Assembly: GCA_029243025.1 (NCBI GenBank)
Contig: JAQWSU010000056.1
Coordinates: 1 to 64,000 of the forward strand
From: Pirellulaceae bacterium
Lineage (GTDB): Bacteria; Planctomycetota; Planctomycetia; Pirellulales; Pirellulaceae
Direction of reading: 5' to 3'
Length of the DNA stretch: 64,000 bases
The notes under the pieces were generated by a model. That model did no database searches. It was not told the DNA's origin and saw only the letters and a list, made by a program, of their open reading frames with translations. Shown here piece after piece: positions 6,856-57,038 of this stretch; position 1 is the first letter of the stretch, and every line of letters starts with the position of its first letter. The position numbers and the translations under genes were made by a program.

Positions 6856-7209
6856 AGCCGAAAGATCACATCACGTGGCAGACGGCCAGAATAGCGAATG
6901 CAGCAGAGATTGGAGCCAAAAGCGAGGAACATCGAGCGAGCTGAAAGTGAATATCAAATATGCTTTCTGAGCTAGAAAATCCAAGACCAAAAGGTGTGTA
7001 TTCCCGCTCCACACCCTTGGTCGGTTACCTGCCTCGCAGATCTTCAGGAAGCAGCAGAATCGCTTCAATCAGCCAGGAATCTAGCGGCTAATCGAATCAA
7101 ACCATCGGTTAAATTTCTCGTTAGCCCTCCGAATTCGAGACAAGTGTTACTGATATCTTTGCGTGTCACAAGTTTTCAACCTAGGATCTGGACCGAACTA
7201 TTTAGCGGG
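6856..7209. other. Intergenic region between convergent genes
   Basis: These 354 bases lie between the 3' ends of the PIG-L gene and the esterase gene. Short frames here show no protein features, and I see no strong hairpin with a T tract. Nothing can be supported. Confidence 0.5.
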
Positions 7210-9151: not shown

Positions 9152-9380
9152 AATTCGCCTTTCTACTGTCTGTCTTCCAACCTGCCAGATTGGTCAAAGC
9201 GAGACACGATATCGACCGACCTTGGAAATCGTCAAACACTCATCAAGACACTCCTGCTTCCGCTTTCGAGCAACTTTTCTCTCTATTCCCCCAACCCGAG
9301 TGTCCGGTTGAACGCTTGGTTTTCGACTTATGGAATAGACAAGCAGATTTTGGCTTTATTGTCATGGAGGATTATCCGGC

Positions 9381-12458: not shown

Positions 12459-13697
12459 TTACAAATCATCTTTTCGTGTCGCCTCCCGACAACCCAATCC
12501 AATCCACTCGATCTTTCCTTGGGAAAGGCACACTTCGTCGCCCACTGGTTGGCAAGCAACGGATTGCTGTGAACGGCTCCGAAAACAGGCCGCTGCCTCA
12601 GAAGAACGCTGCCTCAGAAGGCATTCCGAACAACCGGCCCCATTCACTCGCAGATTTAGAATCCAAATAAGATCGCAACGAAACGACTGTTCGTCGTTGT
12701 CAGAGGCTAACCAATAGACATCCAAAAAGTCTTTTTCAAACCCCCGATAGGTACCCCACATACCGTAAAATTGCTGATCTTGACTGGGCGTGTCCAACTT
12801 ACTGATGAATCTTCGTAGCGGACGAGTCCAAAACCCGTCGACATGCCAGTTGTCGCTCTGCCACATCAGCTTTCCGCCCTCGAAAGTACGACGTGTGTTG
12901 GCCCAAACAAGCGGAGACACAATTCTCTGAGCGCCATATAACAGCTCTTAACGACCCAACCGCCCCCTGGCCAAGCCGGAATCAATATTCACAAGTAAGG
13001 CATCGACGAAAAAGGTTTGGATGTCGGAACGGCTCTCTTCAATGGGACGCGGATTGTATTTCCCAAATTCACTGACGGCGTCTAGATATTCAACGTAAAA
13101 ACGGATACCGCTCGTCAACTTCACGTTGGTAAAGAGACGCAGGGGTTGCAACAAAAAACTCTCATCGCTGCCCGTCAAGCCGAGCCCTCGAAAGTTCTGC
13201 TCCAACATTTGCCAAGCCCGATATTGCCCGCCAATGTCTAACATGGCGCAATCACCGAGGCATCGTTGCTTGAAACGGTCGCCAGGCCACCACACGTGAT
13301 AACAGGAATCGCAGATGTAGCTAAAATTATTGTTATAGAAAAGTGGCTTATACACGCTCGCAACGGCCCTCTGAATCGCAGCTCGTTCTTTTTCACTGCA
13401 ACAACATTTCTCAATCGAACACGCACATGGCGCCACCGCCCATGAATTCTTGGTGACGGATCCTGGAGTAGAATTTGGCTTCGCAGAAAGCTCTCCGCCC
13501 GTTTCATGCAAAGGGGGCTGCTTCCACATAGAAGTTGGCAAGCCGTTTGCAACCTGACCTGTCACGCTGGAGGGTACCAACAAAAAAGGAAAGAACAGCC
13601 AGTTGCAACTGCCCTCACCGAAAGCGTTGAGATGACATGTTCTTGCCTCTCGAATTTCCGTAGAAAACGGTGTGTGAAATGTCAAAATATTGGTCAC
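12459..13697 (-). pseudogene. Alginate-export-family outer membrane protein, interrupted
   Basis: The N-terminal part (FYNNNFSYICDSCYHVWWPG, CLGDCAMLDIGGQYR, RFYVEYLDAVSEF, PRPIEESRSD) and the following part (LVWANTRRTFEGGKLMW, VDGFWTRP, QFYGMWGTYRG) match successive blocks of planctomycete alginate-export porins. Both lie in the same frame, separated by a TAA at 12948-12950 in the block GRLGR-stop-ELLYGAQRIVSP, where the family has Gln (CAA). After DVYWLASDNDEQSF the sequence no longer resembles the family and stops early at 12459, so the barrel's C-terminal half is missing. A 13-base direct repeat near 12597-12625 marks the divergent end. A nonsense codon plus truncation make a functional porin unlikely. 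Confidence 0.75.
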
Positions 13698-34413: not shown

Positions 34414-35580
34414 ATGACCCGCCAGGTCGAATCTAACCCGTTTGAGCTGATGGTCCAAGTCCTCGAGGAACAAGGCTTCGACGGCATGGCCAACGCCCTG
34501 CAGATCCTCGTCAACGAGGCGATGTTGATCGAGCGGAGCGAAGCGCTTCGAGCAGAGCCGTACGAGCGGACGAGCGAGCGACGCGGCTACGCCAACGGCT
34601 TCAAACCCAAGACGCTCAACACGCGCGTCGGCCAGCTCGAGTTGCAAGTGCCGCAGACCCGCGGCGTCGAGTTCTATCCGAAATCGCTCGAGCGGGGCGT
34701 TCGCAGCGAACGGGCTCTCAAGTTGGCGGTTGCCGAGATGTACGTCCAGGGCGTCTCCACGCGCAAAGTGACCGAGATCACGCAACAACTCTGCGGGTTG
34801 GAGGTCTCGAGCAGCCAGGTCAGCCGGGCCGCGGCGCTGCTCGATGAAGAACTCCAGTCGTGGCGCACGCGGCCGTTGGGCAAACTTCCTTATCTGATTA
34901 TCGACGCCCGTTATGAAAAGGTCCGCCACGGCGGCAGCGTCGTCGATTGCGCCGTATTGGTCGCCGTCGGCGTGTTGCCCAATGGAAAACGGACCGTGCT
35001 GGGCGTCAGCGCCAAACTCTCCGAGGCGGAGGTCCATTGGCGAGCATTTCTCAGCTCGTTGGTCGAACGCGGATTGCATGGCGTCGAGTTGATCACGAGC
35101 GACGCCCACGAAGGTCTCAAGGCAGCCCGCCAGGCGGTCTTTCCCGGCGTGCCGTGGCAGCGTTGTCAGTTCCATCTCCAGCAGAACGCCGCCGCATACG
35201 TTCCCAAAGTCGACATGCGAACCGGCGCCGCCGCCGACTTGCGCGGCGTCTTCAACGCGCCCAATGCGAGCGAAGCCCAGCGGCTTCTCAAGCTTGCGGT
35301 GGAAAGATATCGTTCGTCCGCGCCGAAGCTGGCCGACTGGATGGAAGCGAACGTCCCCGAGGGACTGACCGTGCTGGAGCGACCGACCGCCCATCGCCGC
35401 CGACTACGAACGACCAACATGCTCGAACGACTCAACAAAGAAATCCACCGACGCACACGCGTCGCCACGCTCTTTCCCAACGAACCGTCCCTGCTCCGAC
35501 TCGTCAGCGCCGTACTCGCCGAAGTCGACGAAGAATGGCAAACCGCCAAATGTTACTTAACCATCGAAACCGACTCGTAA
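34414..35580 (+). CDS. IS256-family transposase (mutator type)
   Basis: This DDE transposase catalyses copy-and-paste movement of the element. The catalytic residues are Asp164 (LIIDARYEKVR), Asp230 (LITSDAHEGL) and Glu338 (TTNMLERLNKE), with the IS256 signature Cys251-x2-His254 (RCQFHLQQ) between the second and third. The N-terminal region has RSERRGYANGFKPKTL and VSTRKVTEITQ, typical of the DNA-binding part. At 388 residues it is close to the usual 390-400. A GAAAGGAG ribosome-binding site precedes the ATG. The long open frame on the opposite strand is an artefact of G+C-rich codons. Confidence 0.97.
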   Translation: MTRQVESNPFELMVQVLEEQGFDGMANALQILVNEAMLIERSEALRAEPYERTSERRGYANGFKPKTLNTRVGQLELQVPQTRGVEFYPKSLERGVRSERALKLAVAEMYVQGVSTRKVTEITQQLCGLEVSSSQVSRAAALLDEELQSWRTRPLGKLPYLIIDARYEKVRHGGSVVDCAVLVAVGVLPNGKRTVLGVSAKLSEAEVHWRAFLSSLVERGLHGVELITSDAHEGLKAARQAVFPGVPWQRCQFHLQQNAAAYVPKVDMRTGAAADLRGVFNAPNASEAQRLLKLAVERYRSSAPKLADWMEANVPEGLTVLERPTAHRRRLRTTNMLERLNKEIHRRTRVATLFPNEPSLLRLVSAVLAEVDEEWQTAKCYLTIETDS

Positions 35581-37059: not shown

Positions 37060-37893
37060 ATGAAAAAACCGGCCGTTGAACCCATACCACAGATCATTGC
37101 CTTTGGTGGCTGTGGGGCTGCAGATCCCTGGGTTGACCCAAGAATATTTCGCTATGTTCTTCACGCAACCAAAGTCAGTCGCCCTCGAATCGCCTTACTC
37201 ACTTGCGCTTCGGGAGATGACCAACGTGTTCTGGCCAGGCTCCATCGGCTGTACCGCCGCATGGGTGCCGTGACGCAACAACTCAAACTTGGCAAAGGTC
37301 AAGAGTGGCATCGTCCCGGTCTTCTTTCACAGCATTTTGATCTGATTCATGTTGAGGGAGGGAACACGGGATTTCTTATGCATCAATTGCAACAAAACAG
37401 CATGAGATCGGCGTTGCACGAAGCCTGGCTCAACGGCGTCGTCTTAACGGGCACGAGTGCTGGTGCGTCCTGTTGGTTTGCCCACGCCATGAGTGCTTCA
37501 CTCTTTTCCTTTGTCGAGGAGGACGAGACGATCGTCGCCCAGCCGGGTCTGGGCTTTCTTCCTCATAGTATTTGTGTCCATTACGATCGCTCCGAGCGAC
37601 GAAGAGAAGCCTACAAGACCGGCCTTGCCGATGGACTGCAAGCCGGATTCGGTTTGGACCACCATGCTGGTCTGCATTTCCATGGCGGAGAATTGACGCG
37701 AATTATTGCCTTGCGACCTAATGCCGGCACTTTTGAAGTGACAAAGCAGGCCCACCGGATTATGATGAATCGCCTGGAGGGAGAATCTCCAGAGCGATTG
37801 GCATGGAACGCAATCCTAAACAAAGTCGTCAATACATTGATTCGCCGACTACGAAAAAAAATCCCACTAATACTGCAGCCCAAAGCTCATTAA
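37060..37893 (+). CDS. Peptidase S51 (peptidase E/cyanophycinase-like) family protein
   Basis: The family uses a Ser nucleophile in a nucleophile elbow: here VLTGTSAGASCWF with Ser133. Other family marks are ALLTCASGDD, HVEGGNTGFLMHQL (100-110) and FGLDHHAGLHFHGGEL, which supplies the likely His and acidic partners. Peptidase E removes N-terminal Asp from dipeptides, and cyanophycinases cut beta-Asp-Arg. Related proteins occur in RiPP clusters as maturation proteases, but this one could equally be a stand-alone dipeptidase. It is the first gene of a tight plus-strand operon. Only one base separates its stop from the next start. Confidence 0.8.
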   Translation: MKKPAVEPIPQIIAFGGCGAADPWVDPRIFRYVLHATKVSRPRIALLTCASGDDQRVLARLHRLYRRMGAVTQQLKLGKGQEWHRPGLLSQHFDLIHVEGGNTGFLMHQLQQNSMRSALHEAWLNGVVLTGTSAGASCWFAHAMSASLFSFVEEDETIVAQPGLGFLPHSICVHYDRSERRREAYKTGLADGLQAGFGLDHHAGLHFHGGELTRIIALRPNAGTFEVTKQAHRIMMNRLEGESPERLAWNAILNKVVNTLIRRLRKKIPLILQPKAH

Positions 37894-37894
37894 C

Positions 37895-38854
37895 GTGACT
37901 GCACGAAAATCCGTTTTCTATAACCTCTTCGGTCAACTTCTTGAACTCCGATGTCAGCGACCGTCTATCCTCGACGCCCTGACAGAGAGAGAGTCGTGCT
38001 GGAAACCTCTACTGAGTTCACCTTGTTCGGGGGATCCTGACGTTGTCGTTAACGTGCTCATACATCCCCCACCGTGTCCTTTGACCCAAGTACAGCACTT
38101 CAGCAACGAGCATTTTTTTTTTCACGGCAGCAGCTCCCGCCTGCTGACGGGCTATCTGTACGCCCGACCCTGGCAAATCCATGTTCAGAGCTATGTCGAG
38201 GATGACGAAACGACCCTGGACAATATGATTCTGCCAACGTTGAACAATATCCTGCTACGGCTGGGGCTGGTCAATGTTCATTGTGCAGCCGTGGCCCGGG
38301 AAGGCCGCGGATTATTGCTCATGGGGCCCAGTCAATCAGGGAAAAGTACCACCTCGCTATTGCTCGCACGTGCGGGTTACGATTTTCTTGGTGACAATGA
38401 CATCTACCTGCGGCAGGTAAATGATGAGATTGTTGCGCTGTCAAACACCAAGGAGCTTTTCCTGCTCGATAATACGGCTGAGAGATTTGCCGAATTGAGT
38501 TTCACCCGGGACTTACCGATCCGTGATCGTGGCGGCACCGCCAAACGCGTTCTGACCATGGACAAGACCTCACCCGGGCAATGTATCCAGGAATCTGTAA
38601 CGCGGGCACTGGTTTTTCCACAGGTAGGTGAAACACCCAATACGGAGGTGGAAGCGATCGAGCCTTTCGACTGTCTTCAACAACTAATGCAGCTGGTTCC
38701 GGCCCGGGGGTTGCCTGCCTTGATCAAAGACGAACGAGCGCTCAATGTGCTCTTTGAGTTACTTTCAAACTTATCTCTGACGACCAAGACTTATCGGGTT
38801 CGGCTCGGCCGTGATCCGAAACAGCTTGTTGAAACTTTCGGGACATTGCTCTGA
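37895..38854 (+). CDS. HPr kinase/phosphorylase-like P-loop kinase
   Basis: The C-terminal two thirds resemble the kinase domain of HprK. VNVHCAAVAREGRGLLLMGP leads into a Walker A motif GPSQSGKST (144-152), then LLLARAGYDFLGDND where HprK has an Asp pair. The regulatory N-terminal half differs from true HprK, and no HPr or PTS gene is present, so classical catabolite control is unlikely. HprK-like proteins are found in two contexts. One is certain lasso-peptide clusters, where they phosphorylate the peptide C terminus. The other is exopolysaccharide/exosortase-linked gene sets with PqqD-like and nucleotidyltransferase proteins. Both partners occur in this locus, so its substrate may be a peptide or a sugar. 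Confidence 0.8.
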   Translation: MTARKSVFYNLFGQLLELRCQRPSILDALTERESCWKPLLSSPCSGDPDVVVNVLIHPPPCPLTQVQHFSNEHFFFHGSSSRLLTGYLYARPWQIHVQSYVEDDETTLDNMILPTLNNILLRLGLVNVHCAAVAREGRGLLLMGPSQSGKSTTSLLLARAGYDFLGDNDIYLRQVNDEIVALSNTKELFLLDNTAERFAELSFTRDLPIRDRGGTAKRVLTMDKTSPGQCIQESVTRALVFPQVGETPNTEVEAIEPFDCLQQLMQLVPARGLPALIKDERALNVLFELLSNLSLTTKTYRVRLGRDPKQLVETFGTLL

Positions 38855-38865
38855 GAAAGTCACCG

Positions 38866-40026
38866 ATGGACCCTGGCACTCTAGATCGACCTATCCGCAT
38901 CGGCTGGTACATCCATCCCTTACGACTTGGAGGCATGGAATATTTCCTGTTACGCCTGGCCAAAAAGCTTACCCCGAGGAACGTGCAGATTGTCGGCATC
39001 TTTGCAAGAAAAGGTGAAGTTGTTGACGAATTCACAACCTGCGGAATCGAAACACAAATCCTTAATTTCCGTTCTTTTCGACATGGTTTTGAAACCCTCT
39101 CCGAGTCGCTGCTGTCGCATCGAATCGATATTGTTCAAACAAATATGTTTACTCCCCTGGCCGCCATTGCCGCAGGGCACGTGGGTCTCCCGCATATTTG
39201 GAGGGTAGGTGGACATCCGGATGTTGCGCTACGACGGATGAACTCAGATGACAGACGAATGCACTTGGAGGTCGTGGCAGCACAGTCTGTGGCTATCGTC
39301 TGTAATTCACAGTTCGTGGCAGAACCATTTGCTGGCTTGTCAGGACCTGAGCCCGTCATCATTCGGAATGGAGTGGCAAACCACCGAGAAAATCACGTGA
39401 TGGAAGCGTCGAAAAACCGTTCATGGAGCCCTCCTCGAATATGCATGCTGGCCCATTTTGACCCGCAGAAACGCCATGAAGACCTGATTCGTGCAGCAGC
39501 ACTGGTAATCACACGATTCCCGCAAGCACGCTTCGCGCTTTACGGCTCCACTTTTGGTGAAACATCCATGGTCGCCTACCGTAAAGATCTGCGAAAACTG
39601 ATCAAATCTCTAGGGCTGGAAGGTGTAGTTATCATGCGAAGGACAAAGGATGCATTCGCTGAGTTATCGCGTGCAACCGTCTCGGTGATGCCCTCCATTG
39701 ATGAAAGTTCCAGCAACGCGATACTTGAATCGATGGCTTGCGGCACACCGGTGATCGCTGCAGATTCAGGTGGAAACAAAGAAATGATCGATTCCAACAC
39801 CAATGGGTTGCTGATCACAATGCGTGCGCCTGAGGAACTGGCAAATGCGATCCTGAATCTGCTCCAGGAACCAGCGCTCGCCCGCAAGATCGCAATCAAG
39901 GCAAACCAGAAAATCCGTCACGACTATGACCTTGATCTCTGCGCAACCCATTATCAAACACTTTACCAACGCTGCTTGAAAGACCTGAAGACTGTCGATC
40001 CCGGGAATTCAAAATGTGCGGTATAG
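38866..40026 (+). CDS. Glycosyltransferase family 4
   Basis: This is a GT-B fold transferase. The N-terminal domain opens IRIGWYIHPLRLGGMEYFLL, with the usual glycine-rich loop (LRLGGME). The C-terminal domain holds PRICMLAHFDPQKRHEDLIR, then VSVMPSIDESSSNAILESMACGTPVIAADSGGNKEMI, which carries the donor-binding E-x7-E type motif (ESSSNAILE). It should transfer a hexose from a nucleotide sugar with retention. Length (386 residues) is typical. It overlaps the amidotransferase gene by 13 bases and follows the kinase-like gene by 11, so it belongs to the same operon. Confidence 0.92.
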   Translation: MDPGTLDRPIRIGWYIHPLRLGGMEYFLLRLAKKLTPRNVQIVGIFARKGEVVDEFTTCGIETQILNFRSFRHGFETLSESLLSHRIDIVQTNMFTPLAAIAAGHVGLPHIWRVGGHPDVALRRMNSDDRRMHLEVVAAQSVAIVCNSQFVAEPFAGLSGPEPVIIRNGVANHRENHVMEASKNRSWSPPRICMLAHFDPQKRHEDLIRAAALVITRFPQARFALYGSTFGETSMVAYRKDLRKLIKSLGLEGVVIMRRTKDAFAELSRATVSVMPSIDESSSNAILESMACGTPVIAADSGGNKEMIDSNTNGLLITMRAPEELANAILNLLQEPALARKIAIKANQKIRHDYDLDLCATHYQTLYQRCLKDLKTVDPGNSKCAV

Positions 40027-41828
40027 TCGGGCAGCTGCGATTTGATGGGAGCCCGGTCGATCGAGCCCTCGTCAAACGTATGACTGCCCATCTTCGGCGT
40101 CGAGGGCCTGACGGCAAAGGTTTCCATTTCGAACGCTGTATCGGAATGGGGCACCGCCGCCTGGCCCTGGTAGATCCCTCCGGGCCCGGTCAACCCGTTA
40201 GCAACGAAGATGGAAGCCTGTGGCTTGTAGGCAACAATGAGATCTACAACCACCTCGAATTACGTCGGGAGTTAGAAAATCTTGGCCACCAATTTCAGAC
40301 GGCAGGTGATGCTGAGGTTATCCTGCACCTCTTCGAGGAGATCGGCGAGGCTGCGTTTGAAAGAATAGTCGGAATGTTCGCCTTCGCCCTCTGGGATGTT
40401 CTGAACGAAACCCTCTATTTGGTTCGTGACCCCTTTGGTATCAAACCACTGCACTACACCCGTGGTTCCATGGGGACATTTCTATTCGCTTCTGAGCTCG
40501 GAGCCCTGCTGTGCGACAAGTCGATTGATCGATCCATCAACCCCGTGGCAGTGGACGGCTACCTTCGTAGCCTGACGGTTCCCGAGCCTCACTGTATCAT
40601 CCGATCAGTGCACAAGGTTCCTGCTGGGCACTTCGTACGTCGGACGAGAGAGGGAGTTGAGACCCATCGCTACTTCGAGCTGGAGATCGGTCGTGGCAGG
40701 ACCATGCAGCAGGAAGAACTTGCTGACCAACTGCGTGCTGCACTCAAGGAGACCGTTAGTATGAGCCTGCGTGGCGATACCGAAGTTGGCTGTTTCCTGA
40801 GTGGCGGTGTCGATTCAAGTGCTCTGGTGGCCACGGCCAGTCAAATTGTTGATGGTCCTCTACGGACCTATTCCTTGGGATTCGAGGAAAAATCCTTTGA
40901 CGAAAGTCCGTACAGTCAGCTGGTCAGCCAGACATTCAAAAGCCGGCATTGCGAAATCCGTCTTTCCAGAAACCAGGCCGTTGATGTTACAGCTCGCATC
41001 ATCGATTGCCTGGACGAACCCTTTGCAGATTCGTCGGCGTTGCCGACCTTTGTGCTTGCGGAGCGGGCAGCTCAAGATGTCAAAGCTGTGCTGTCCGGAG
41101 AAGGTCTGGACGAACTTTTCGCGGGAAACGCCTGGCATCTTCCTTTGAAAGGAACTTTAACTGCTGAGCAGAATGACGATCCGTTAGATGACCCTCGGCG
41201 AAACATTTTTTCGCGGGAGACTCTTGCTGAACTTTGCCAAAGCAGTCATCGTCAACTTCTCGCGTACAAACAAAACGGAAACCTTGCCCCTGCCCGGCAA
41301 TGGGGAGCCATATTTGCAAAAAGTCCCATCGACAAAAGATTGGCCTTTGACCTCGGCAGCTATCTGCCCTCCGACATGCTGGTAAAAATGGATCGCCTGC
41401 CGATGGTTTCTTCCCTTGAAGTGCGAGTTCCGTATCTGAACGCGCCGTTCGCGGGGTTGGTTGCCGGGATGAACCTATCCATGAAGATTCGAGAGAACGT
41501 GCAGAAATACCTGATGAAAACCATCCTCAGAGGTGTCGTACCGGATGTGGTACTTGATCGACCCAAGCAGGGATTTGCCATCCCTATCGACATTTGGATT
41601 TGGCAGGACGGACGCTTCCGAGACATGGTCTACGATGTCTTAAGCGATTCGCAGACACGGCAGCGCGGACTCTTTAACACTGCTGCTATTCAAACCATGC
41701 TGGACCAGCATGATCGGTTCGAACAACTTCACGGTCACCGCCTCTGGACACTTTTTATGTTCGAAATGTGGTATCGACGCATTTCAGATATCTCTGACCG
41801 ACAAGACGTGGTGAGCAAGCATGAGTAA
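40014..41828 (+). CDS. Asparagine synthetase B-like glutamine amidotransferase
   Basis: The protein begins MCGIVGQLRF, so Cys2 is the glutaminase nucleophile after Met removal. RRRGPDGKG and GDAEVILHLFEE follow in the N-terminal domain. The synthetase domain has the PP-loop SGGVDSSALVA (263-273), GEGLDELFAG and VPYLNAPF. The enzyme class activates a carboxylate with ATP and amidates it with ammonia from glutamine, or forms a lactam as in lasso cyclases. The usual NGEIYN is GNNEIYN here, so the oxyanion-hole Gly is replaced by Asn, which may weaken glutaminase activity. At 604 residues it matches amidotransferases of exopolysaccharide clusters. The gene overlaps both neighbours. Confidence 0.9.
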   Translation: MCGIVGQLRFDGSPVDRALVKRMTAHLRRRGPDGKGFHFERCIGMGHRRLALVDPSGPGQPVSNEDGSLWLVGNNEIYNHLELRRELENLGHQFQTAGDAEVILHLFEEIGEAAFERIVGMFAFALWDVLNETLYLVRDPFGIKPLHYTRGSMGTFLFASELGALLCDKSIDRSINPVAVDGYLRSLTVPEPHCIIRSVHKVPAGHFVRRTREGVETHRYFELEIGRGRTMQQEELADQLRAALKETVSMSLRGDTEVGCFLSGGVDSSALVATASQIVDGPLRTYSLGFEEKSFDESPYSQLVSQTFKSRHCEIRLSRNQAVDVTARIIDCLDEPFADSSALPTFVLAERAAQDVKAVLSGEGLDELFAGNAWHLPLKGTLTAEQNDDPLDDPRRNIFSRETLAELCQSSHRQLLAYKQNGNLAPARQWGAIFAKSPIDKRLAFDLGSYLPSDMLVKMDRLPMVSSLEVRVPYLNAPFAGLVAGMNLSMKIRENVQKYLMKTILRGVVPDVVLDRPKQGFAIPIDIWIWQDGRFRDMVYDVLSDSQTRQRGLFNTAAIQTMLDQHDRFEQLHGHRLWTLFMFEMWYRRISDISDRQDVVSKHE

Positions 41829-42525
41829 CATTAAAGTCACAGTCGCAATGCCAGCTTACAATGCGGCCAACTACATCGAAGATGCAATAGAGAGTGTGCT
41901 TGCACAGGACTTTGATGCGTTCGAACTCATCATCATAGACGATGGGTCATCTGATGGCACGGGCGACAAGCTTGCTTGCTACACCGGGCATCCACGTGTA
42001 CATCTTGTCGATCATGCTTCAAACCAGGGATCGGGAGTTACTCGCAATCGCATACTTGAAATGGCCCGTGGGGAGTATTTCCTGCCATGCGACGCTGACG
42101 ACTTGCTGCTTCCCGGGGCCTTGCAGAATTTGAGTCAATTCCTCGATGACAACCATGAATTTGGCGTTGTCTATGGGGATTTACTTCGGCTTGAAACAGA
42201 AGAAAATACTCTTCAAAATCCGCCCTCCATCATTGGAGTTGACGCCAAACAAGTATGGGATCTCTTTGAGAATGCTGTAAACCATGGCGGCAGCATGATG
42301 CGTAGAGACTTAGTAAGGCAGGTTGGAGGTTATGCAGTTGGCTCCGTACCAGATGACTGGGGCCTGTTTCTGAAACTGGCAGAGATTACACGGATCCACT
42401 ATCTCAAGGGATTCGTTTATTACATCTGGCGTATTAACGCCGGTAGCCAATCGCGAGCACCCTCGTGGTCCGAGAACAGCCATCTCCTGATTGAGGCAGC
42501 CATCGAACGCCGTGCCAAGCGATGA
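41821..42525 (+). CDS. Glycosyltransferase family 2 (first of a pair)
   Basis: This is a GT-A fold enzyme: VTVAMPAYNAANYIEDAIES, ELIIIDDGSSDGTG, then the DxD-type metal motif in LPCDADDLLLPGA. GGSMMRRDLVRQVGGY is the acceptor-side helix. It should transfer a sugar from a nucleotide donor. It overlaps the amidotransferase gene by 8 bases. The protein is clearly paralogous to the product of 43710-44417; the two share many blocks and flank a nucleotidyltransferase-like gene, so a local duplication is likely. No membrane segment is present. Confidence 0.92.
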   Translation: MSNIKVTVAMPAYNAANYIEDAIESVLAQDFDAFELIIIDDGSSDGTGDKLACYTGHPRVHLVDHASNQGSGVTRNRILEMARGEYFLPCDADDLLLPGALQNLSQFLDDNHEFGVVYGDLLRLETEENTLQNPPSIIGVDAKQVWDLFENAVNHGGSMMRRDLVRQVGGYAVGSVPDDWGLFLKLAEITRIHYLKGFVYYIWRINAGSQSRAPSWSENSHLLIEAAIERRAKR

Positions 42526-42576
42526 TACCAACCAGTACCTGGCCCCCCCTAGCACCCAATGATATTCTCGCAAGAA

Positions 42577-43707
42577 CTACAACACGACGCGAATCGGCCC
42601 ACTGAACAAGAGATAAGGAACCGTGACCCATCGAGACATTTCATACAATGACAGGCGATAAGACCAGAGTGCGTGCCAGCGATTCCCGGGTCGCAAAACC
42701 ATTTCCAGCCCCTGGCACTCTTTCGGCGCTTGTGTTTTAAGGTTTGAGACAAGAGTCGGGAGTAGGTTGTGGGCATCGAACAATTTCAGGATCAGCATGA
42801 GGACGTCGATTGTGATTCGATAAAGGTGTTCTGTTTTTCTCCTGGCGAAGAATCCCTGCCAGTCCATGGAATGATCGACGACACGCAGGATCAGAAAGGC
42901 GTCAATAAGATCCTTGACGGTAAGTTCAAGACGGGACAAGTCATCAAAGATTTCGAGCAATGTAAGAACAAGGGTGTATTCATCGTCCAGGACGTCAATT
43001 CTGTCACCTAGTTCAGGCAGGGTGAATGCTTGCCGAGTCTGCCAGATCCGGGGTTCATCAATGGCATAAGAAGGATGACAACGAAGTGCCCAATGCAAAT
43101 CCACGATCAAGCCCTCCCCACTCAAAACCTGTGCGTGGGTAAGATGCGAGCGAAGTGAATAAAGGAGCATCGGACTCAAAAGCTTCAGGTCATTTTTCAA
43201 CCATCGAAGGTAAGACTTGGCAGACCCGGAGGGAACCAGAAGATCAATGTCTTCAAACTTCCGTTGTGCTAAATCGCCATAATAGCTTGTAGCCAGGTGG
43301 GGTCCTTTGAGTAGAATGACGTTCTTTCCAGTACGGGTAAATGCCTGATGCAGTCGATGAAGATCACGCGCGAGGTTGCTATTGGCCAGCCACTGTCGGA
43401 CATAGGCTTGTTGCCATTGATTGCGAAGTGTCTCAGGCAAGCTGTCACGGACCGCGATGGAATCTGTCCGGGGCCACAGCAGTGGGCCCAGATGATGTGT
43501 TGCAGCAAACTGTGCCAGCTGTTCTGCCGTTGGCGTACCACAATTGAGACCATGGACTGCGGCATCCACATCGTCGGCGAGCAGTTGAGCCAACCATGGA
43601 AGCGTCGAAAGCCCTTCCAGCGGTTTACGATAAAGATGTCCTATGCCTGTCATAGCGTGCTGGGTCTCCCGGAAGTCTCCACCGGCCAAGTCAAAAAAGG
43701 ATCTCAT
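42577..43707 (-). CDS. Nucleotidyltransferase-fold family protein (PF14907-like)
   Basis: The motif VILLKGPHLATSYYGDLAQRKFEDIDLLV contains the K-G...R-x-x-x-D-[IL]-D-L pattern of this uncharacterised nucleotidyltransferase family. The two Asp of DID would bind metal. The family is frequently encoded with PqqD-like, HprK-like and asparagine-synthase-like proteins. The rest is helical and 376 residues is usual. The frame starts at 43707, only 2 bases from the divergent GT2 start, so the ATG at 43653 (MTGIGHLYRK) may be the true start. It is the only minus-strand gene within the plus-strand block. Its target is unknown. Confidence 0.8.
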   Translation of the reverse strand: MRSFFDLAGGDFRETQHAMTGIGHLYRKPLEGLSTLPWLAQLLADDVDAAVHGLNCGTPTAEQLAQFAATHHLGPLLWPRTDSIAVRDSLPETLRNQWQQAYVRQWLANSNLARDLHRLHQAFTRTGKNVILLKGPHLATSYYGDLAQRKFEDIDLLVPSGSAKSYLRWLKNDLKLLSPMLLYSLRSHLTHAQVLSGEGLIVDLHWALRCHPSYAIDEPRIWQTRQAFTLPELGDRIDVLDDEYTLVLTLLEIFDDLSRLELTVKDLIDAFLILRVVDHSMDWQGFFARRKTEHLYRITIDVLMLILKLFDAHNLLPTLVSNLKTQAPKECQGLEMVLRPGNRWHALWSYRLSLYEMSRWVTVPYLLFSGPIRVVL

Positions 43708-43709
43708 TC

Positions 43710-44417
43710 ATGACAGATGTTGAAGTCTCGGTGGTCATGCCGGCCTATAATGCCGAGCGTTTCATCGGTGAACAGATTGAAAGCATTTTGGCACAAGACT
43801 GCGACAAGTTCGAGTTGCTGGTTGGGGACGATCTATCCGAGGACCAGACGCTGAGCATCGCTAAGAGCTACGAAAGCTCTCCCAGGGTCCGTATCTTTGC
43901 AAACAAGGTGCACCTTGGGGCTGGGGCAACCAGAAACCAACTTAACCGGCTTGCCCGAGGCAGATATCTGACCCCATGCGATGCAGATGACCTGATGTTA
44001 CCTGGTAATCTTAGCCGATTGCGAGCTTATCTGGATAGTCATCCGGAAACTGGGATGGCCTATGCGTCTTTCCTGATGCTGGAGGCCGATGGTGGGGACC
44101 GGCTCCTTCGTCCGCCCTGGTTACGTGGGAAACAACATAGCGAAAGTTGGGACTTCGTAGAGTTCGTGGCCAACCACGCCGGGTCAATGATGCGCCGAGA
44201 CATCGTCATGCAGGTAGGTGGGTATGATGAGGATATCCCGATTCTCGACAGTGTCAGTTTGACTTTGAAGCTGGCGGAGGTGAGCCGGCTGGAGTTACTC
44301 GAAGGAGAGGTACTCTATGCGTACCGACGACATCCCTGGAGCTCCAGTGCGCGTCATCCTGATTGGTATCCCACGTTTCAAAAACTGGTTAATGCCGCGA
44401 TGCAACGGCGCGCCTAA
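43710..44417 (+). CDS. Glycosyltransferase family 2 (second of a pair)
   Basis: This is a GT-A transferase with VSVVMPAYNAERFIGEQIES, ELLVGDDLSEDQT and TPCDADDLMLPGN (DxD-type metal site), then NHAGSMMRRDIVMQVGGY. It is paralogous to the enzyme at 41821-42525 and nearly the same length (235 against 234 residues). An AAGGA ribosome-binding site lies 9 to 10 bases before the ATG, inside the start region of the divergent nucleotidyltransferase gene. The donor and acceptor are unknown. The small differences in the first Asp motif (GDDLSED against DDGSSDG) suggest different donor sugars. Confidence 0.92.
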   Translation: MTDVEVSVVMPAYNAERFIGEQIESILAQDCDKFELLVGDDLSEDQTLSIAKSYESSPRVRIFANKVHLGAGATRNQLNRLARGRYLTPCDADDLMLPGNLSRLRAYLDSHPETGMAYASFLMLEADGGDRLLRPPWLRGKQHSESWDFVEFVANHAGSMMRRDIVMQVGGYDEDIPILDSVSLTLKLAEVSRLELLEGEVLYAYRRHPWSSSARHPDWYPTFQKLVNAAMQRRA

Positions 44418-44535
44418 TGAGTGACTGCATAAGATCAGTACCACTACCCGTGATCGTAACGTTAACCTGGGTGGAAACCCCAGTTGCCGCGATGAAGACT
44501 CCCACGCGGCGGTGGCCCGCTCAACCATTTTCCTA

Positions 44536-46680
44536 TCATTCCTGTGACACCCGGTTTGTGATTTGTGACACCGGTTCTGTGATTTGTGGCATTTTGAGCA
44601 TGTGAGCATGCTTGACATCCGGTCCAACCAGATCCAGCGTCTGGTGGCAGTCCTGACATTCTTTGAGAACGTTCTCTCCGGAGAATGCGCTGCAACTTCT
44701 TCGGGCGCGAATATAGCCTTCACTATTCACCACGTTGAGGATGTGTTCATTGATGAGGTTTCCGAAGTTGATCGCTCCACTTTGGACTTTGTTTCGGAAC
44801 CATACTTCGCCTCCCAGGCAAGGGTAAACAGTGCCATCGAAGTCGACAAGGACGCGTTCCCAAGGCTCCCGGCATGAGCGACTCTTTTTTTTCTGGCCAA
44901 ACATTGGGTCGTGCCCAAATTCAACTCCGACAGATTTGGCGAGGGTGTGTGCTCGCTCAATAACTCGGTTGTACCTTTGTTGGTCGTAGTAAAGAGATTC
45001 TTCCTGCTTCGGTCGCTGGCCGTTTTGACTACGGTACTGATCCCAGGGATAGTAGCGGCATAACGCAGCATAAACTCGTCCAACTCCAAACTCATTCGCC
45101 CGGCTTATCAGGGCCGGCAGTTCTTCGATGTTGTCTTGTGAAACGACCATGTAAAAAACCTTGTTCATCGAGGTATTTCCAACGCGAACCAACTCTCGCT
45201 CGAGGATTGGTAACGCTCCGAACACATCTTCGCTTGCCCATGTTTGCAGAATCCGGTTATTGGTCTCGGTCGTTGCGCCGTGCACGGCGAGCCAAAGTTC
45301 GTCCAGGCTGGTTCTGGCCAGATCCGCTGCGTGGCGTTTCAGCAGAAACCCGTTCGTCGTCAGCGAAGTGCGAATCTCGGGGCGGTTCTTTTCTACGTGG
45401 TGAATGATTTCGATCAGATCCTGGCACAGCAACGGATCTCCGCCGCCGCTGAAGCTGAAATAGCAGGGTGTCACTGATGGGATGTGCGACAGGATTTTCT
45501 CAAATGATGCGAGCCTCATTTGGTCTTTGCTCGCAGGGTTGAAATCCTGATTACAGAAGTTGCAGCGGACATTGCAGAAATTTGTCATCAGGAAATGGTA
45601 GCGAGTCGGAACACGATGCAGAACGATCGGTTGAGCAGCAACCGTTTCTTCGTTTACCGGCTGAAAAAGGGGCAGGTTCGGAGTTGGCGGTTTTTTTTTC
45701 GTGCTGGCCCCAAAGAAACCCCGCAGCTTTCGGCGCAACGCACGCCGGGGATCGAATCGTACGATCCGAGACCGATACGCCAAACTGTCCCAAAAGTTTT
45801 TGGTGTAGAAGAACATCCGCCGACGTTGGGCGAAGATAAACTCGAAGAGCGGTTTTAATGCCATTCGAATGCTAAACGATCGACGTGAAATCTGCAGTCT
45901 GTTTAGATCATAGAGCCACAAATTATTGGGATCGCGAACGAAATCTTTTTGGATGGGGAGCAGGTGGAGATGGTGAGAAAAATACCGACCACCACCCGGA
46001 AGATCTACATAGCGTGCGCGACGGTTGGTGAAGACTTTTGTCACCCCATGTTCGAAAGACAACCAAATATAGTGTTCGTAGATAAACTTGAGCGGGCATT
46101 CTCGCAATTTGCTTCCGTAAAGACGATGCGCGCAGTCACTATAAAAGTCGATGTCCGGCTGATATCGAAAAATCCGCTGCTGGACTGGCGGTTGATTGGG
46201 AAAGGGTTGGCAGTAACGCAAACGTTCCCGATGATTTTTGATGGAATTATCATCATTGAGAGTCGGATAAAAGGCGTATAACGCACCGTCGATCATGTTA
46301 AAGCCGTGACGCCCTGCCTCGTTGAGAAACTCGAGCAGGGTGAGCCCACGCACCGGAGAATGATAGAAACCGTCCGCATCAATCAGCAAGATCCAGTCGT
46401 AGTCAGAGAGTTCCTTATGCATGTAGGCACAGGCAAACTGCAGTATCTTGCACCATTCGTATCCTTCGGTCGAAATGCTGAGGACATCCCTGATCTGCCC
46501 GGGATATCGGCTCCCATTCTGCCGAAAAGAGTCGATAATCCGGGAGCTGTCATCAGTGGATTCATTGTCGAAGACGACCAGGTCAATCCCCTGCGATAGG
46601 TAGAACGCGATGGTGTCTCCAATGATTTCTTCTTCGTTAAAGCAGAAAAGAAGGCCACAGGATTGATTGACTTGGTTCAT
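44536..46680 (-). CDS. Fusion of GT2-type glycosyltransferase and radical SAM/SPASM-like enzyme
   Basis: The first 320 residues form a glycosyltransferase domain (GLLFCFNEEEIIGDTIAFYL, VVFDNESTDDS, DWILLIDADGFY with a DxD at 100-102). The second half is a radical SAM domain, with the 4Fe-4S site FCNVRCNFC (Cys369, 373, 376), then SFSGGGDPLL and SLTTNGFLL. C-terminal cysteines 603, 621, 663, 675 and 678 (SCREPWERVLVDFDGTVYPC, ECQDC) form a SPASM-like auxiliary cluster region. SPASM enzymes commonly modify peptides. Joining this to a glycosyltransferase in one chain is unusual. The start chosen is the ATG at 46680, which overlaps the SGNH stop (ATGA), rather than 46752. The last codons encode a short 7-residue tandem repeat. 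Confidence 0.9.
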   Translation of the reverse strand: MNQVNQSCGLLFCFNEEEIIGDTIAFYLSQGIDLVVFDNESTDDSSRIIDSFRQNGSRYPGQIRDVLSISTEGYEWCKILQFACAYMHKELSDYDWILLIDADGFYHSPVRGLTLLEFLNEAGRHGFNMIDGALYAFYPTLNDDNSIKNHRERLRYCQPFPNQPPVQQRIFRYQPDIDFYSDCAHRLYGSKLRECPLKFIYEHYIWLSFEHGVTKVFTNRRARYVDLPGGGRYFSHHLHLLPIQKDFVRDPNNLWLYDLNRLQISRRSFSIRMALKPLFEFIFAQRRRMFFYTKNFWDSLAYRSRIVRFDPRRALRRKLRGFFGASTKKKPPTPNLPLFQPVNEETVAAQPIVLHRVPTRYHFLMTNFCNVRCNFCNQDFNPASKDQMRLASFEKILSHIPSVTPCYFSFSGGGDPLLCQDLIEIIHHVEKNRPEIRTSLTTNGFLLKRHAADLARTSLDELWLAVHGATTETNNRILQTWASEDVFGALPILERELVRVGNTSMNKVFYMVVSQDNIEELPALISRANEFGVGRVYAALCRYYPWDQYRSQNGQRPKQEESLYYDQQRYNRVIERAHTLAKSVGVEFGHDPMFGQKKKSRSCREPWERVLVDFDGTVYPCLGGEVWFRNKVQSGAINFGNLINEHILNVVNSEGYIRARRSCSAFSGENVLKECQDCHQTLDLVGPDVKHAHMLKMPQITEPVSQITNRVSQE
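44543..44584. repeat. 21-bp tandem repeat, two units
   Basis: Two imperfect 21-base units (44543-44563 and 44564-44584) lie at the 3' end of the radical SAM gene and encode QITEPVS-QITNRVS. A partial third unit begins after them. Confidence 0.75.
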
Positions 46681-48407
46681 TTGCTTCTTACGACGATTTG
46701 TCGATGGCCTATTGGGTGAGAGAAAACCGTTTTGATAGCGATCTGGATCCATGCAGCCACCTTCCGGGCTGCCTGTTCGTGCCCTATCTCATTAGGATGC
46801 CCGTCAAATGGGAGAAAAATGTTGTCATTTTCTGCTGCTTGCTTGAAAGAACCGGTTAGGTCGACAAAGGATATGCCATGCTTTGAACAGAATCGCCCGA
46901 TTGTTTTGGCTTCGTAGTCCAGGTCAAAATCATCCAGATCGAGGTTCCACCTCTGCCGCATCATTTCCCAATCCTGTTTTTGAACCTGATGCCGTTGCGG
47001 AAAATAGACAACAAGGAAGTCCGCGCCGATGCTTGACGCTTTGTGTTCCATTGACTCGAGCAGTCCAAAAAGCATCGCCAGAGCGGCCTTTTTGGGTGGT
47101 AATTCTTTGCGATACGCCATTCCAAGATTTGGAAATCCGTCAAAAAGACGCTTATGACCATCATCCCCTTCGAGTCTCATCGCAGACGACGCAGTCAACT
47201 CCCCAGCACGTTGTGAAGAGACAATCTCTTGATTGCGCGTGATAAAGGCATCGCCTAGCCGATCGATAAGTCTTAGCTGCAAAATGCTCTGCAAGATTTC
47301 ATTTGTCATGTAGCCTGCGGTGAGCGAGTTTTCTTTACTGACATTTCCCTGGACTGGATAGACGTATTCGTCCCAATACTCATGGCGGTGCCCGTGGCTT
47401 AAGTTTCGATCTTCTCTTAGCTGCAGGTTACCTGCGGGATCGAGTCGGAATACTCCGTTGGGACCGCAGCCCCAAAGCGATTGTACGGCATCATTTCCGG
47501 ATAGGTTGTAGATGATTAACTTCGGGCGATATGCAATGCCATGAGCTTCGAGAAAGTGTAGCCCATAACAAGGGTCCGATACTTCAGCATTCATGACAAA
47601 AGTGCTGGGGTCAAAAGAACGTCGCAATATCGATTGCAGTCGTGAACCGTAGAACTGAGTTTGGTCGATGCCAAAACCGTTGCTGAAGGAGTCGCCAAGA
47701 CTAAGGATGGAAAACATGGATTGCGTTAGGGGAATCTTGAATTCAGCTTCATTTCTGAAGCCCTTGCTGTTGGTGTGGATCCAAACCCGATGTGGATTCT
47801 CCGCAGCACTCCGAATCATCCAATTGTCGAGACCGGGATTGAGACGCCCCCCTGGACCGATAAAGGGACTAACTCGCGGGAAGGTTCTCGACATGGTTGA
47901 CGATGCACCCCAGATCACTGGGCGAGCTTTCGCATCAATCGCTTCAAACAACACCACAAGGCTGAACAGCAACGCAAACATTGCCGCGCTCAGAAGCAAC
48001 TTGCGCAATCGAAATAAAAGACTTGCCCATTCAAGTGAGCAAATGACGATTAGAACAATCGCCATGAGCTGCCGTCTTCCAGAAGGAAATCGGTACGCCC
48101 AATAGCAGGCAGTCGCGAGCAGTGTGGCAGCCAGCAAAGCGAAAAAAACAGGACGGGCTCGATACCATCTTTCTGCCGACTCTAAGCGGAGCGGTATTAG
48201 AAAACAGATGCCACCCAGAATAATAGCGGGAGCAATGCCCAGGGCCCAATAACGAAATACCCCCACACCTCGCCAAGGCTCCCGGCTTATCATGAAAGAT
48301 AAAGTCAGGATTACAAGGACTGCCACCGGAACAGCCATGACGCGATAGAACAACACGGCCCGGGATGGGAGCTGATCAGCATCCATTTCTAATCCGCGTT
48401 GCGTCAT
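46677..48407 (-). CDS. Membrane protein with SGNH/GDSL hydrolase domain
   Basis: Five or so hydrophobic helices occupy the first 160 residues (for example VMAVPVAVLVILTLSF and LLSAAMFALLFSLVVLF). The rest is a large periplasmic domain with ILSLGDSFSNGFGID (GDSxS block I, Ser nucleophile), YNLSGNDAV (block III Asn) and PFDGHPNEIGHEQAA (Asp-x-x-His block V). SGNH domains in this setting act as acyl esterases or acyltransferases on glycans, as in AlgX/AlgJ-like proteins. The start is the ATG at 48407 with GGGGA just before it. It overlaps a small upstream ORF and the downstream radical SAM gene by ATGA, giving strict translational coupling. Confidence 0.85.
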   Translation of the reverse strand: MTQRGLEMDADQLPSRAVLFYRVMAVPVAVLVILTLSFMISREPWRGVGVFRYWALGIAPAIILGGICFLIPLRLESAERWYRARPVFFALLAATLLATACYWAYRFPSGRRQLMAIVLIVICSLEWASLLFRLRKLLLSAAMFALLFSLVVLFEAIDAKARPVIWGASSTMSRTFPRVSPFIGPGGRLNPGLDNWMIRSAAENPHRVWIHTNSKGFRNEAEFKIPLTQSMFSILSLGDSFSNGFGIDQTQFYGSRLQSILRRSFDPSTFVMNAEVSDPCYGLHFLEAHGIAYRPKLIIYNLSGNDAVQSLWGCGPNGVFRLDPAGNLQLREDRNLSHGHRHEYWDEYVYPVQGNVSKENSLTAGYMTNEILQSILQLRLIDRLGDAFITRNQEIVSSQRAGELTASSAMRLEGDDGHKRLFDGFPNLGMAYRKELPPKKAALAMLFGLLESMEHKASSIGADFLVVYFPQRHQVQKQDWEMMRQRWNLDLDDFDLDYEAKTIGRFCSKHGISFVDLTGSFKQAAENDNIFLPFDGHPNEIGHEQAARKVAAWIQIAIKTVFSHPIGHRQIVVRSK

Positions 48408-48574
48408 GAAGATCCCCAAACAGCGTGGCGGTCACTTACTAGAAAGGAAGTCTTTATATGTATCGACGCCATTGCCGGGAACTCGGAGTGCGTCATCCTA
48501 ACTGGTAATCGACATTTTAAAAGTTCGTTTAGGCCGTGTGGAATCAACATATATCCGGAACGGATGTCATGCAT
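48404..48574 (-). CDS. Candidate small peptide gene, 56 residues, coupled between PqqD-like and SGNH genes
   Basis: The ATG follows the PqqD-like stop without any gap (TGAATG), and the stop overlaps the SGNH start (ATGA). The product begins MHDIRSGYMLIPHGLNELLK and ends with DRHAVWGSS. It has a single Cys and no recognisable leader or core motif. The perfect fit to both neighbours, in an operon where every junction is coupled, argues for translation. A chance frame of this length is still possible. If real, it could be the substrate of the PqqD-like protein and the radical SAM enzyme. Confidence 0.4.
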   Translation of the reverse strand: MHDIRSGYMLIPHGLNELLKCRLPVRMTHSEFPAMASIHIKTSFLVSDRHAVWGSS

Positions 48575-48967
48575 TCAATCCAGTTGACCAAGGTACTTGA
48601 GATTGCCTTTGTTACTGACCGTAGGTGTCTCATAGGGCATTTCTCTCGTTGCAATGTTTTTTCCGTCTGACAGATCATCTGCGCCCGGACCGTTTGCCGA
48701 ATTGGCCAACAGACTGTTGCTATTCAAATCGTTAATCAGTGCGTTCAAGTCGTTTCGAGCTCGGCTCTCATCGATTCCATAAACGCTGACCAATTTTTGG
48801 GCAATTTCCTCCAGGGACATCTTGCCATCGAGATGAATCCAGATGTACGGCGCCGCACCTCGAAGCTCGTAGTACTCTCCGCTGTCAAGATTGAGTAACA
48901 TAGAGCGATCTTCGGCAAGTTGTCGCCATGGCATGTTTGAGCGGAGAGGCAAAGATTTGATTGACAT
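48575..48967 (-). CDS. PqqD-like peptide-binding protein with RiPP-leader-like C-terminal tail
   Basis: Residues about 12-88 match the PqqD/RRE family: RQLAEDRSMLLNLDSGEYYEL, RGAAPYIWIHLDG, SLEEIAQKLVSVYGID and DLNALINDLNSNSLL. This winged-helix domain binds leader peptides and presents them to modifying enzymes. The remaining 42 residues are an extension not needed for the fold, ending PYETPTVSNKGNLKYLGQLD. This has the spacing Y-x2-P-x-[L/V]-x3-G-x5 seen in lasso-peptide leaders, but almost nothing follows it. The open frame extends to 49180, yet the upstream part lacks protein character, so the ATG at 48967 (MSIKSLPL) is preferred. It heads the minus-strand operon. Confidence 0.8.
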   Translation of the reverse strand: MSIKSLPLRSNMPWRQLAEDRSMLLNLDSGEYYELRGAAPYIWIHLDGKMSLEEIAQKLVSVYGIDESRARNDLNALINDLNSNSLLANSANGPGADDLSDGKNIATREMPYETPTVSNKGNLKYLGQLD

Positions 48968-51260: not shown

Positions 51261-51343
51261 TTATAACGCGGCTTTCAAAAATGCTTTGTGACCACGGTTG
51301 AGAGTCAACTCGCGGTGCGTGGTCTAGCGGTGACCAGAGGAAG

Positions 51344-51417
<74 letters not shown>

Positions 51418-55751: not shown

Positions 55752-57038
55752 TCAGTCTGCACTGATTCGCGTCAGTTCCTGTCTCGCCAAGACAGCCATC
55801 ATCAAGTACATCCCGATCACAGGAATCGCGTAAGAGACCGCGGCCCCAGTTGCACCAAACCAATAACCTAGTGGCACACAAAATAAGACGTGGATCAATA
55901 CAGTCAACGTGGTCGTAATCACAACCAGTTTTTGCCGATGAAGATATTTAAGGAAGGCGGGGGTGAGTGAATTCATCGTCCACACACTCGAGGAGACCGC
56001 GACGACACACAATGCAGCATATCCTTCCACAAATTCCTCACCAAACATGGCGAGTATTTGCTTGCCAAAAAAGAAGGTTGCACTCAGAAACAACAAGGTG
56101 ATCGACCCGATCCACAGCCATCGGACTCGCGCTAAATGCTTTAATCCATCCAGATCTCGACGCTCGAGCAACGTGGAGACATTCGACAGATACAGCTTGT
56201 CAGTCGATTTAGCTACGATCCCAATGAACATGCCGGTTTCCGCAGCAACAGAATAGATGGAAACAATCGCTTCATTCTGAGCAACGACCTCGAGTATGAT
56301 CACCCCGATCTTCGCCAGCACGCTAATCAACAGAGCAAAATATAAGAAAGGCCAAATACTCTTGAGCCACTCACTATTTTTGAACACAGGGGTCGCGTTC
56401 AGTATCTCTTTCCGCGTTGTACGTAAAACAAGACAGTAAACCGCGATGACGCCTGCCAACCACCCCAAGCCGTAGCAAATACCGCCGGAAGTTGCCGTCA
56501 GTGTGAAGCGAGATTCGATCCACAGCAGGGCAAGTAAGAGTGTAACCCCCGGAACAAGCAAACGAGTTACAAAACCGGATCGAATGGCCGCTTGATTCGC
56601 AGTGACAAATTCGCTTCCTGCACCGACCCAAGCCATCGCCGGCAGAAACAGCAAAACAACGCCCAAGGCATAATTCCCAAAAACTCCGTCCCTTGAATAT
56701 TCCCAAACGGCTCCGATTATTGCCAACGAAAGGCTCGCGATCAAAGTCCAACGCATACTAAAACGAAGATAGCCGCGAGCTGCGGACCAGTCGTGACGTT
56801 CGCTATATGCCGGCATGATCCTTAACGCATACTTTCCAGTGCCCATTTCTGCCAACGTGGCCAGAATGGCTGCAAACGATACAGCCACGGCGTAATTGTC
56901 ATAGCCATCTGCTCCCAATCCACGTGCCAAGACGATCGCCGTCGCATACGACAAAGCAAAAGAAAGCATCGAAAACACTAACAACCAAACCTTTTGTCTT
57001 CTCTGAATTCGCCGCATGTTCGCCAAATCGTTTGCCAT
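55752..57038 (-). CDS. Polysaccharide flippase (Wzx/MOP superfamily)
   Basis: Twelve or so hydrophobic helices fill the 428 residues. The opening RRQKVWLLVFSMLSFALSYA followed by LARGLGADGYDNYAVAVSFA is characteristic of Wzx-type flippases (the 'ARxLGxxxYGxYA' pattern). Such proteins move lipid-linked oligosaccharides across the inner membrane. The last helices (LTPAFLKYLHRQKLVVI, LGYWFGATGAAVSYA) also fit. The gene is isolated from glycosyltransferase genes by several kilobases. It faces the ABC substrate-binding gene tail to tail. Confidence 0.9.
   Translation of the reverse strand: MANDLANMRRIQRRQKVWLLVFSMLSFALSYATAIVLARGLGADGYDNYAVAVSFAAILATLAEMGTGKYALRIMPAYSERHDWSAARGYLRFSMRWTLIASLSLAIIGAVWEYSRDGVFGNYALGVVLLFLPAMAWVGAGSEFVTANQAAIRSGFVTRLLVPGVTLLLALLWIESRFTLTATSGGICYGLGWLAGVIAVYCLVLRTTRKEILNATPVFKNSEWLKSIWPFLYFALLISVLAKIGVIILEVVAQNEAIVSIYSVAAETGMFIGIVAKSTDKLYLSNVSTLLERRDLDGLKHLARVRWLWIGSITLLFLSATFFFGKQILAMFGEEFVEGYAALCVVAVSSSVWTMNSLTPAFLKYLHRQKLVVITTTLTVLIHVLFCVPLGYWFGATGAAVSYAIPVIGMYLMMAVLARQELTRISAD

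Follow-up and report, generated by a model that had tools for sequence, protein, structure and literature searches.

We have examined a 64,000-nucleotide stretch of DNA (hereafter the window) from a Pirellulaceae bacterium, positions 1 to 64,000 of contig JAQWSU010000056.1, and within it a locus of ten genes (Table 1). Tentatively, and with somewhat less than even confidence, we read this locus as a lineage-specific surface-glycan cluster that carries a divergent member of a recurring cassette, in which a PqqD-like RiPP recognition element (RRE; RiPP, ribosomally synthesized and post-translationally modified peptide), an HprK-like kinase, an NTP_transf_5 nucleotidyltransferase-like protein (NTase) and a family 2 glycosyltransferase (GT2) would carry out phospho-glycosylation. 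Gene families were checked with Pfam scans and then with NCBIfam models and their cut-offs. All ten genes named in the original prediction are present, with the HprK family at a sub-threshold score, and the three glycosyltransferases (GTs), the GT fusion and the SGNH protein match their Pfam families.

Cassette loci were found by surveys with PF05402, PF14907 and a PqqD profile, and their content was re-checked by six-frame profile searches, since simple gene calling loses genes, or places their starts wrongly, where the GC content is high; some of the surveyed loci are cut by contig ends. Approximately 18 cassettes with the core of PqqD, HprK, NTP_transf_5 and GT2 were recognized across Planctomycetota and on one cyanobacterial plasmid, the first and third families being enriched by design, because the loci were picked by PqqD or NTase matches. 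HprK, however, was not used in choosing seven loci (L129-L135) selected only by the PqqD profile, in which the PqqD carries the conserved tail described below, and six of the seven contain it; the exception, L131, has its cassette at the end of a contig. The source genome itself has four other such loci (on contigs C49, C14, C34 and C53, the PqqD of C53 being fused to GT2). The quartet is also found in genomes G022, G048, G077, G105, G176, G188, G070, G083, G395 and G228, and a locus in G542 has HprK and GT2. On plasmid pCRI9333.04 of Crinalium epipsammum, genes for PqqD, a nucleotidyltransferase, an HPr kinase, an FkbM methyltransferase and a GT follow one another in this order, and close by are another GT, another nucleotidyltransferase and an ABC exporter. 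This recurrence in Planctomycetota and Crinalium makes a peptide-glycan modification cassette plausible. Conservation across planctomycetes, which the original prediction proposed to check, is found for the core quartet, but the full set of ten genes is not a conserved unit.

In the six-frame searches, genes for AsnB, S51, the SGNH protein, the radical SAM-glycosyltransferase fusion (rSAM-GT) and the lasso-type leader peptidase B2 were found in none of the cassettes with tailed PqqDs. The glycan side of the locus consists of the three GTs, the GT fusion, the SGNH/AlgX protein, an amidotransferase like those of XrtA exopolysaccharide (EPS) loci, and a flippase-like gene approximately 7 kb off, which may belong to the same glycan locus. 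The AsnB protein passes TIGR01536 (430.9 bits, cut-off 267.1) and keeps the MCGIVG N-terminus, with its N-terminal Cys, and the SGGVDSS motif. Its nearest specialised model is TIGR03108 of the XrtA/PEP-CTERM system (495 bits, cut-off 817), and it reaches 216 bits of the 525 required by the lasso cyclase model NF033535; it scores as an ordinary glutamine-hydrolysing or XrtA-EPS-type amidotransferase, not as a lasso cyclase. The S51 protein scores under the cyanophycinase and PepE NCBIfam cut-offs; its relatives are annotated as peptidase E, and those in other planctomycetes have unrelated neighbourhoods.

The rSAM-GT has the CxxxCxxC motif, as CNVRCNFC, and a SPASM domain (PF04055 2e-15, PF13186 1.5e-9), and no named maturase model of NCBIfam passes its cut-off with the radical SAM/SPASM half. 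Its start is most likely at 46680, preferred over 46752 because of the ATGA overlap with the SGNH stop and the homologous starts in P0015 and L096. Among 197 genomes of the order it occurs only in the source genome, in two copies; the second (L008:278-2461, at the end of contig C20) is 36-37% identical to that of the window, and no cassette genes exist on the available side of its contig. Of 392 phylum genomes searched with a four-sequence profile, none besides the source genome gave the fusion, and a pattern scan over the genome_contigs collection, with one genome per species (around 85,000 species), found it, outside the source genome, in only two Candidatus Omnitrophota assemblies. One of these copies adjoins GT2 and CpsD-like kinase genes. 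On Omnitrophota contig L096 (21-6771) the fusion is flanked by three B12-binding-type radical SAM proteins. PqqD or HprK was seen on neither of the two short Omnitrophota contigs. The nearest plasmid-borne match to the radical SAM half is a radical SAM protein in the rfb sugar cluster of Brachyspira pBHWA1; this match and the fusion copy beside GT2 and the CpsD-like kinase add to the glycan side of the evidence.

In the favoured reading, the PqqD-like RRE would hold a peptide or protein acceptor, which the HprK-like kinase would phosphorylate. The NTP_transf_5 protein would add a hexose to the phosphate, as reported for PsmN, the nucleotidyltransferase homologue credited with adding hexoses to pseudomycoidin after phosphorylation of the peptide by the kinase PsmK (PMC9266682). 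The GT2 and GT4 enzymes might then lengthen the sugar and AsnB and rSAM-GT alter the glycan, with acyl groups edited by the SGNH protein; the S51 peptidase would either trim or be a bystander. All of these enzymatic steps, and the peptide acceptor itself, we infer.

The family assignment of the window kinase is the weakest in the locus, and the protein is under all NCBIfam HprK cut-offs. It gives a short match to a solved HPr kinase (PDB 1ko7, E 0.01) and can be aligned with HprKs from related cassettes; its matches within the order at E 1e-8 number just three, all distant, and it is no more than 24% identical to any other HprK in our tree. Single-sequence modelling with AlphaFold2 gave mean predicted local distance difference test scores of 36 for HprK and 44 for PqqD, and these models were not used.

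Several observations weigh against our reading. The kinase has a GDN motif where 21 of 21 aligned homologues have [GS]D[DE] or a similar acid pair, and it lies outside the 17-member clade of tailed-cassette HprKs (97/94 branch support), on a long branch that makes its placement uncertain; from these two features, the kinase may serve some other function or lack one altogether. The locus is divided among several transcription units, so that joint action of its genes is putative. The two converging operons originally described are too simple a picture: the plus-strand operon (37060-42525) has five genes (S51, HprK-like, GT4, AsnB and GT2), separated in order by gaps of 1 and 11 nt and then joined by overlaps of 13 and 8 nt, and beyond it an NTP_transf_5 gene stands alone on the minus strand and a GT2 gene alone on the plus strand, followed by a minus-strand SGNH/rSAM-GT pair and the minus-strand PqqD gene. 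No close relative of the locus was found in 196 other genomes of the order. Finally, no precursor or acceptor peptide was found when the window was searched for small open reading frames (ORFs) of the YxxP and SRR types, the only leader-type match (YxxPxL...G) in the locus being the tail of the PqqD protein.

The last point fits also with a plain exopolysaccharide or cell-surface glycan cluster, in which a sugar-lipid is the target of PqqD, the HprK-like protein and NTP_transf_5, or these have no peptide partner, and the look of peptide modification is coincidental. The many GT and glycan-editing genes, the AsnB of XrtA-EPS kind and the rSAM-GT relatives that are not tied to PqqD are all consistent with such a cluster. 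However, PqqD domains bind peptides where they have been tested, as RREs, and PqqD, HprK and NTP_transf_5 recur together, also in known RiPP systems. We thus regard a plain glycan cluster as rather unlikely, but as a real rival.

Outside the window, the recurring cassettes have PqqDs with a C-terminal tail that is hyperconserved and apparently undescribed. It consists of [YWF]xxPxL, around 13 residues, DP[IV]H[ED]V, 2-4 residues and GWP. The mean pairwise identity among 18 PqqDs is 61% in DPIH..GWP, 24% in the RRE, 10% in the linker and 8% after GWP. When any one of nine tails was left out, the profile built from the others still recovered it (3e-7 to 2e-17), and in the 16 genomes searched the tail is always joined to PqqD and never alone. 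The PqqD of Crinalium also carries it (66.6 bits), a tailed example there being WP_232229449. Tailed PqqDs lie beside HprK, NTP_transf_5 and GT2 in L009, L010 and L077 (contigs C49, C14 and C34 of the source genome), and further tailed loci are L024, L058, L070, L073, L074, L075, L023, L078, L129-L135 and L196:5896-6360. In the open literature we found no description of the [YWF]xxPxL...DPIHEVD..GWP tail, which is not proof of novelty; nor, with most subscription papers outside the coverage, did we find any paper that joins an HprK-related kinase, PqqD and a nucleotidyltransferase, or PqqD and an exosortase.

These PqqDs might each unite a RiPP precursor and its recognition element in one protein, the tail providing a lasso-like YxxPxL leader and, as a nearly invariant core, DPIHEVDxxGWP, to be phosphorylated and glycosylated by HprK, NTP_transf_5 and GT2; the window locus would be a derived or decaying member. 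We consider this unlikely. Compatible with it are the facts that no other part of the protein is as conserved as the tail, that the tail was never found alone, and that SRR-type ORFs are mostly missing from tailed cassettes. If true, pathways that modify peptides would have a new layout, with substrate and recognition domain in one chain, and the lack of an obvious precursor in these cassettes would be explained.

The SRR-type ORFs, with the pattern SRRxLx...P..xTL....A[FW], are present instead of a PqqD tail in loci of the HPr-rel-A type. They occur in one of 18 tailed and in six of nine tail-less non-lasso cassettes (Fisher p 0.002, the counts not being independent because the tailed cassettes form one HprK clade), and strong matches to the SRR profile are confined to such cassettes. 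They lie directly upstream of PqqD/HprK/NTase in L081:4315-4659, L082:7572-7910, L084:6979-7257, L085:9496-10128 and L076 (ORF from 3107). Contig C53 (118.4-119.5 kb) has three in tandem between the NTP_transf_5 gene and the GT2-PqqD fusion (L011:6456-6638, 7032-7211 and about 7346-7495), ending SRRELLGKLRKAAIAVPIATALALKxxTAF... Only L131 (37-189 and 1405-1875; G551) combines such an ORF with a tailed PqqD. The SRR-type ORFs might encode substrates or, alternatively, secreted proteins of the Tat type.

The window PqqD, whose gene start is best taken as ATG 48967, has the tail PYETPTVSNKGNLKYLGQLD, which is leader-like and ends LGQLD. The leader-like tail of the original prediction thus exists, but it gives no evidence for a precursor in the locus, since it ends without a core. 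After the TGA stop the same frame reads MHDIRSGYM, and when the tail is read through, TGA falls at the invariant Pro of the related tails. The register match of the read-through to the DPIHEVD tail has p 0.0024 by shuffling, for a fixed register only and found post hoc. Homology of the two tails is possible; however, the tail hidden Markov model (HMM) alone gives no significant match to the read-through sequence, and leave-one-out HMMs, which find all the other tails at 3e-7 or better, do not find that of the window; an ancestral tail is therefore not certain. The window tail may have decayed, or may resemble a lasso leader by chance. Contig C52 of the source genome (L012:8193-8396) holds a shortened relic of PqqD, which shares 57% identity with the window protein over 68 amino acids (aa) and has no cassette genes near it.

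Decay could extend to the whole cassette, which would then be a former PqqD-HprK-NTase-GT2 unit losing its function within a glycan locus. The stop codon at the invariant Pro with MHDI in frame behind it, the GDN of the kinase, the relic with no partner genes and the scattering of the genes on both strands are all as expected of decay. Conversely, the other reading frames are intact, the NTase and P-loop motifs are kept, the G+C content at third codon positions (GC3) is native, the tail HMM misses the read-through tail, and the HprK tree sets the window copy outside the tailed clade. We judge decay quite unlikely, though it too is a real rival.

It is improbable that all ten genes form one new integrated peptide-glycan system, as was originally proposed. 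Physical proximity and the tight coupling in the plus-strand operon and in the SGNH/rSAM-GT pair are in its favour, and the cassette part of that proposal remains plausible. The combination as a whole is not supported, since no other PqqD/HprK/NTase/GT2 cassette contains S51, AsnB, SGNH or rSAM-GT, and rSAM-GT has the narrow distribution described above. A lasso-peptide-type cluster can be dismissed: phosphorylated lasso clusters, of which the phylum has examples (L136, L138 and L140), share the PqqD, AsnB, HprK and NTase families with the window, and the YETPTV of the tail resembles the YxxPxL leader motif, but there is no B2 peptidase, AsnB is far below the lasso cyclase cut-off, and no precursor was found. 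The absence of a transglutaminase-like leader peptidase, noted originally, holds for both locus and genome: no B2 peptidase (PF13471 / NF033537) is in the locus, and the only PF13471 matches of the genome are ORFs of 531 and 604 aa elsewhere. In other phylum genomes, lasso-type clusters with HprK and clear precursors are found at L136:6851-7030 (YRKPGLVSYGSLGKLTLGGG...) and L138:6738-6929 (YRTPELVVHGSMEKLTG...). Locus L071 (G040; 13235-13357 and 8981-9812) has a lasso-like set of PqqD, B2, HprK and NTase with a 40-aa ORF, MGGDVTFHKEPEMSTTYETPAVTAEAKLTDVTGASKVSGS, and no cyclase was seen there.

Table 1. Positions of the ten locus genes and of associated features in the window
Feature	Position	Strand	Evidence
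S51 peptidase, peptidase E / cyanophycinase-like	37060..37893	+	PF03575 3e-27; nucleophile motif GTSAGA intact
HprK-like kinase	37895..38854	+	PF07475 (Hpr_kinase_C) 2e-4, sub-threshold; P-loop GPSQSGKST
GT4 glycosyltransferase	38866..40026	+	PF13692 3e-28
AsnB-type glutamine amidotransferase / asparagine synthetase	40014..41828	+	PF00733 8e-88 (Asn_synthase + GATase_7)
GT2 glycosyltransferase	41821..42525	+	PF00535 3e-30
NTP_transf_5 nucleotidyltransferase-like protein	42577..43707	-	PF14907 7e-31; motif KG...DIDLLV intact
Second GT2	43710..44417	+	PF00535 2e-27; 45% identity to the 41821-42525 GT2 (blastp)
GT2-like / radical SAM / SPASM fusion (rSAM-GT)	44536..46680	-	PF00535, PF13704, PF04055, PF13186
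Membrane SGNH / AlgX-like esterase or acyltransferase	46677..48419	-	PF13472 4e-8, PF16822 4e-6
PqqD-like RRE protein, 130 aa	48575..48967	-	PF05402 5e-14; cassette PqqD profile A1 62.5 bits
Leader-like C-terminal tail of PqqD, YETPTVSNKGNLKYLGQLD	48578..48634	-	translation; pattern Y..P.V...G.L
TGA stop of PqqD, then same-frame MHDI	48563..48577	-	in register with P-x-H-[ED]-V of related PqqD tails
Wzx-type polysaccharide flippase-like protein	55752..57038	-	PF01943 4e-7

Elsewhere in the window, a Mutator/IS256-type transposase gene at 34414-35580 has a GC3 of 0.77, compared with around 0.5 in the neighbouring genes, and is probably a recent arrival. A protein with nonribosomal peptide synthetase condensation and adenylation domains lies at the window edge (3-2942, minus strand). 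A genomic island at the tRNA-Arg gene (51343-51417) was ruled out, the tRNA end not being repeated and GC and GC3 being native. Anti-phage defence was likewise rejected, as PADLOC shows only viperin-type radical SAM similarity, for P0008.

Phosphorylated or glycosylated lasso peptides, such as paeninodin and pseudomycoidin, share with the window an HprK-like kinase and an NTase that act on the peptide, a PqqD-type B1 protein and a protein of the AsnB fold, whereas the window is without B2, a lasso-type cyclase and a precursor. The LPP RiPP family of Bacillota is the second precedent for a kinase with an NTase (PMC13381572). It shares with the window a discrete RRE, an HprK-like kinase (sub-threshold in the window) and an NTP transferase; it is mostly without a lasso cyclase, and its RRE recognises a YxxP leader motif, YxxPxL being the leader-peptide motif bound by lasso and LPP RREs (PMC13381572). 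LPP loci encode their precursors (YxxPxVLxHQxIxFET) in separate ORFs, along with an SpI-like peptidase and an exporter of the MsbA kind, and none of these was seen at 36-50 kb of the window; in contrast, the window adds GTs, S51, AsnB, rSAM-GT and SGNH. The HPr-rel-A system (TIGR04352, TIGR04353 and PF14907), for which we found no publication, also keeps PqqD-like, HprK-related and PF14907 genes together. Loci of this type in our survey are L081, L082, L084 and L085, and L081 passes both TIGR04352 and TIGR04353. The window kinase, however, reaches 24.7 bits of the 200 required by TIGR04352 (HprK_rel_A), TIGR04353 has no match, and no small SRR-type ORF is present in the window; the proteins of tailed cassettes are also below the cut-offs of these models.

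XrtA/PEP-CTERM exopolysaccharide loci share the AsnB (TIGR03108) and GT4 (stp2-like) types and the richness in GTs, but the window AsnB is under the TIGR03108 cut-off, and no exosortase gene was seen in the window, the rest of the genome not having been searched. The SynChlorMet cassette shares three families (ScmC, HprK-like; ScmD, PqqD; ScmE, radical SAM/SPASM), but all of the window proteins are far under the Scm cut-offs. The window locus, as a lineage-specific mosaic, matters less than the hyperconserved PqqD tail found outside it, which is the most interesting lead of this study. The pairing of a kinase with a PF14907 protein, which lasso, LPP and HPr-rel-A loci have in common, represents a poorly understood chemistry, the placing of a sugar on a peptide phosphate, and a phylum-wide family with a hyperconserved tail is a clear place in which to test it.

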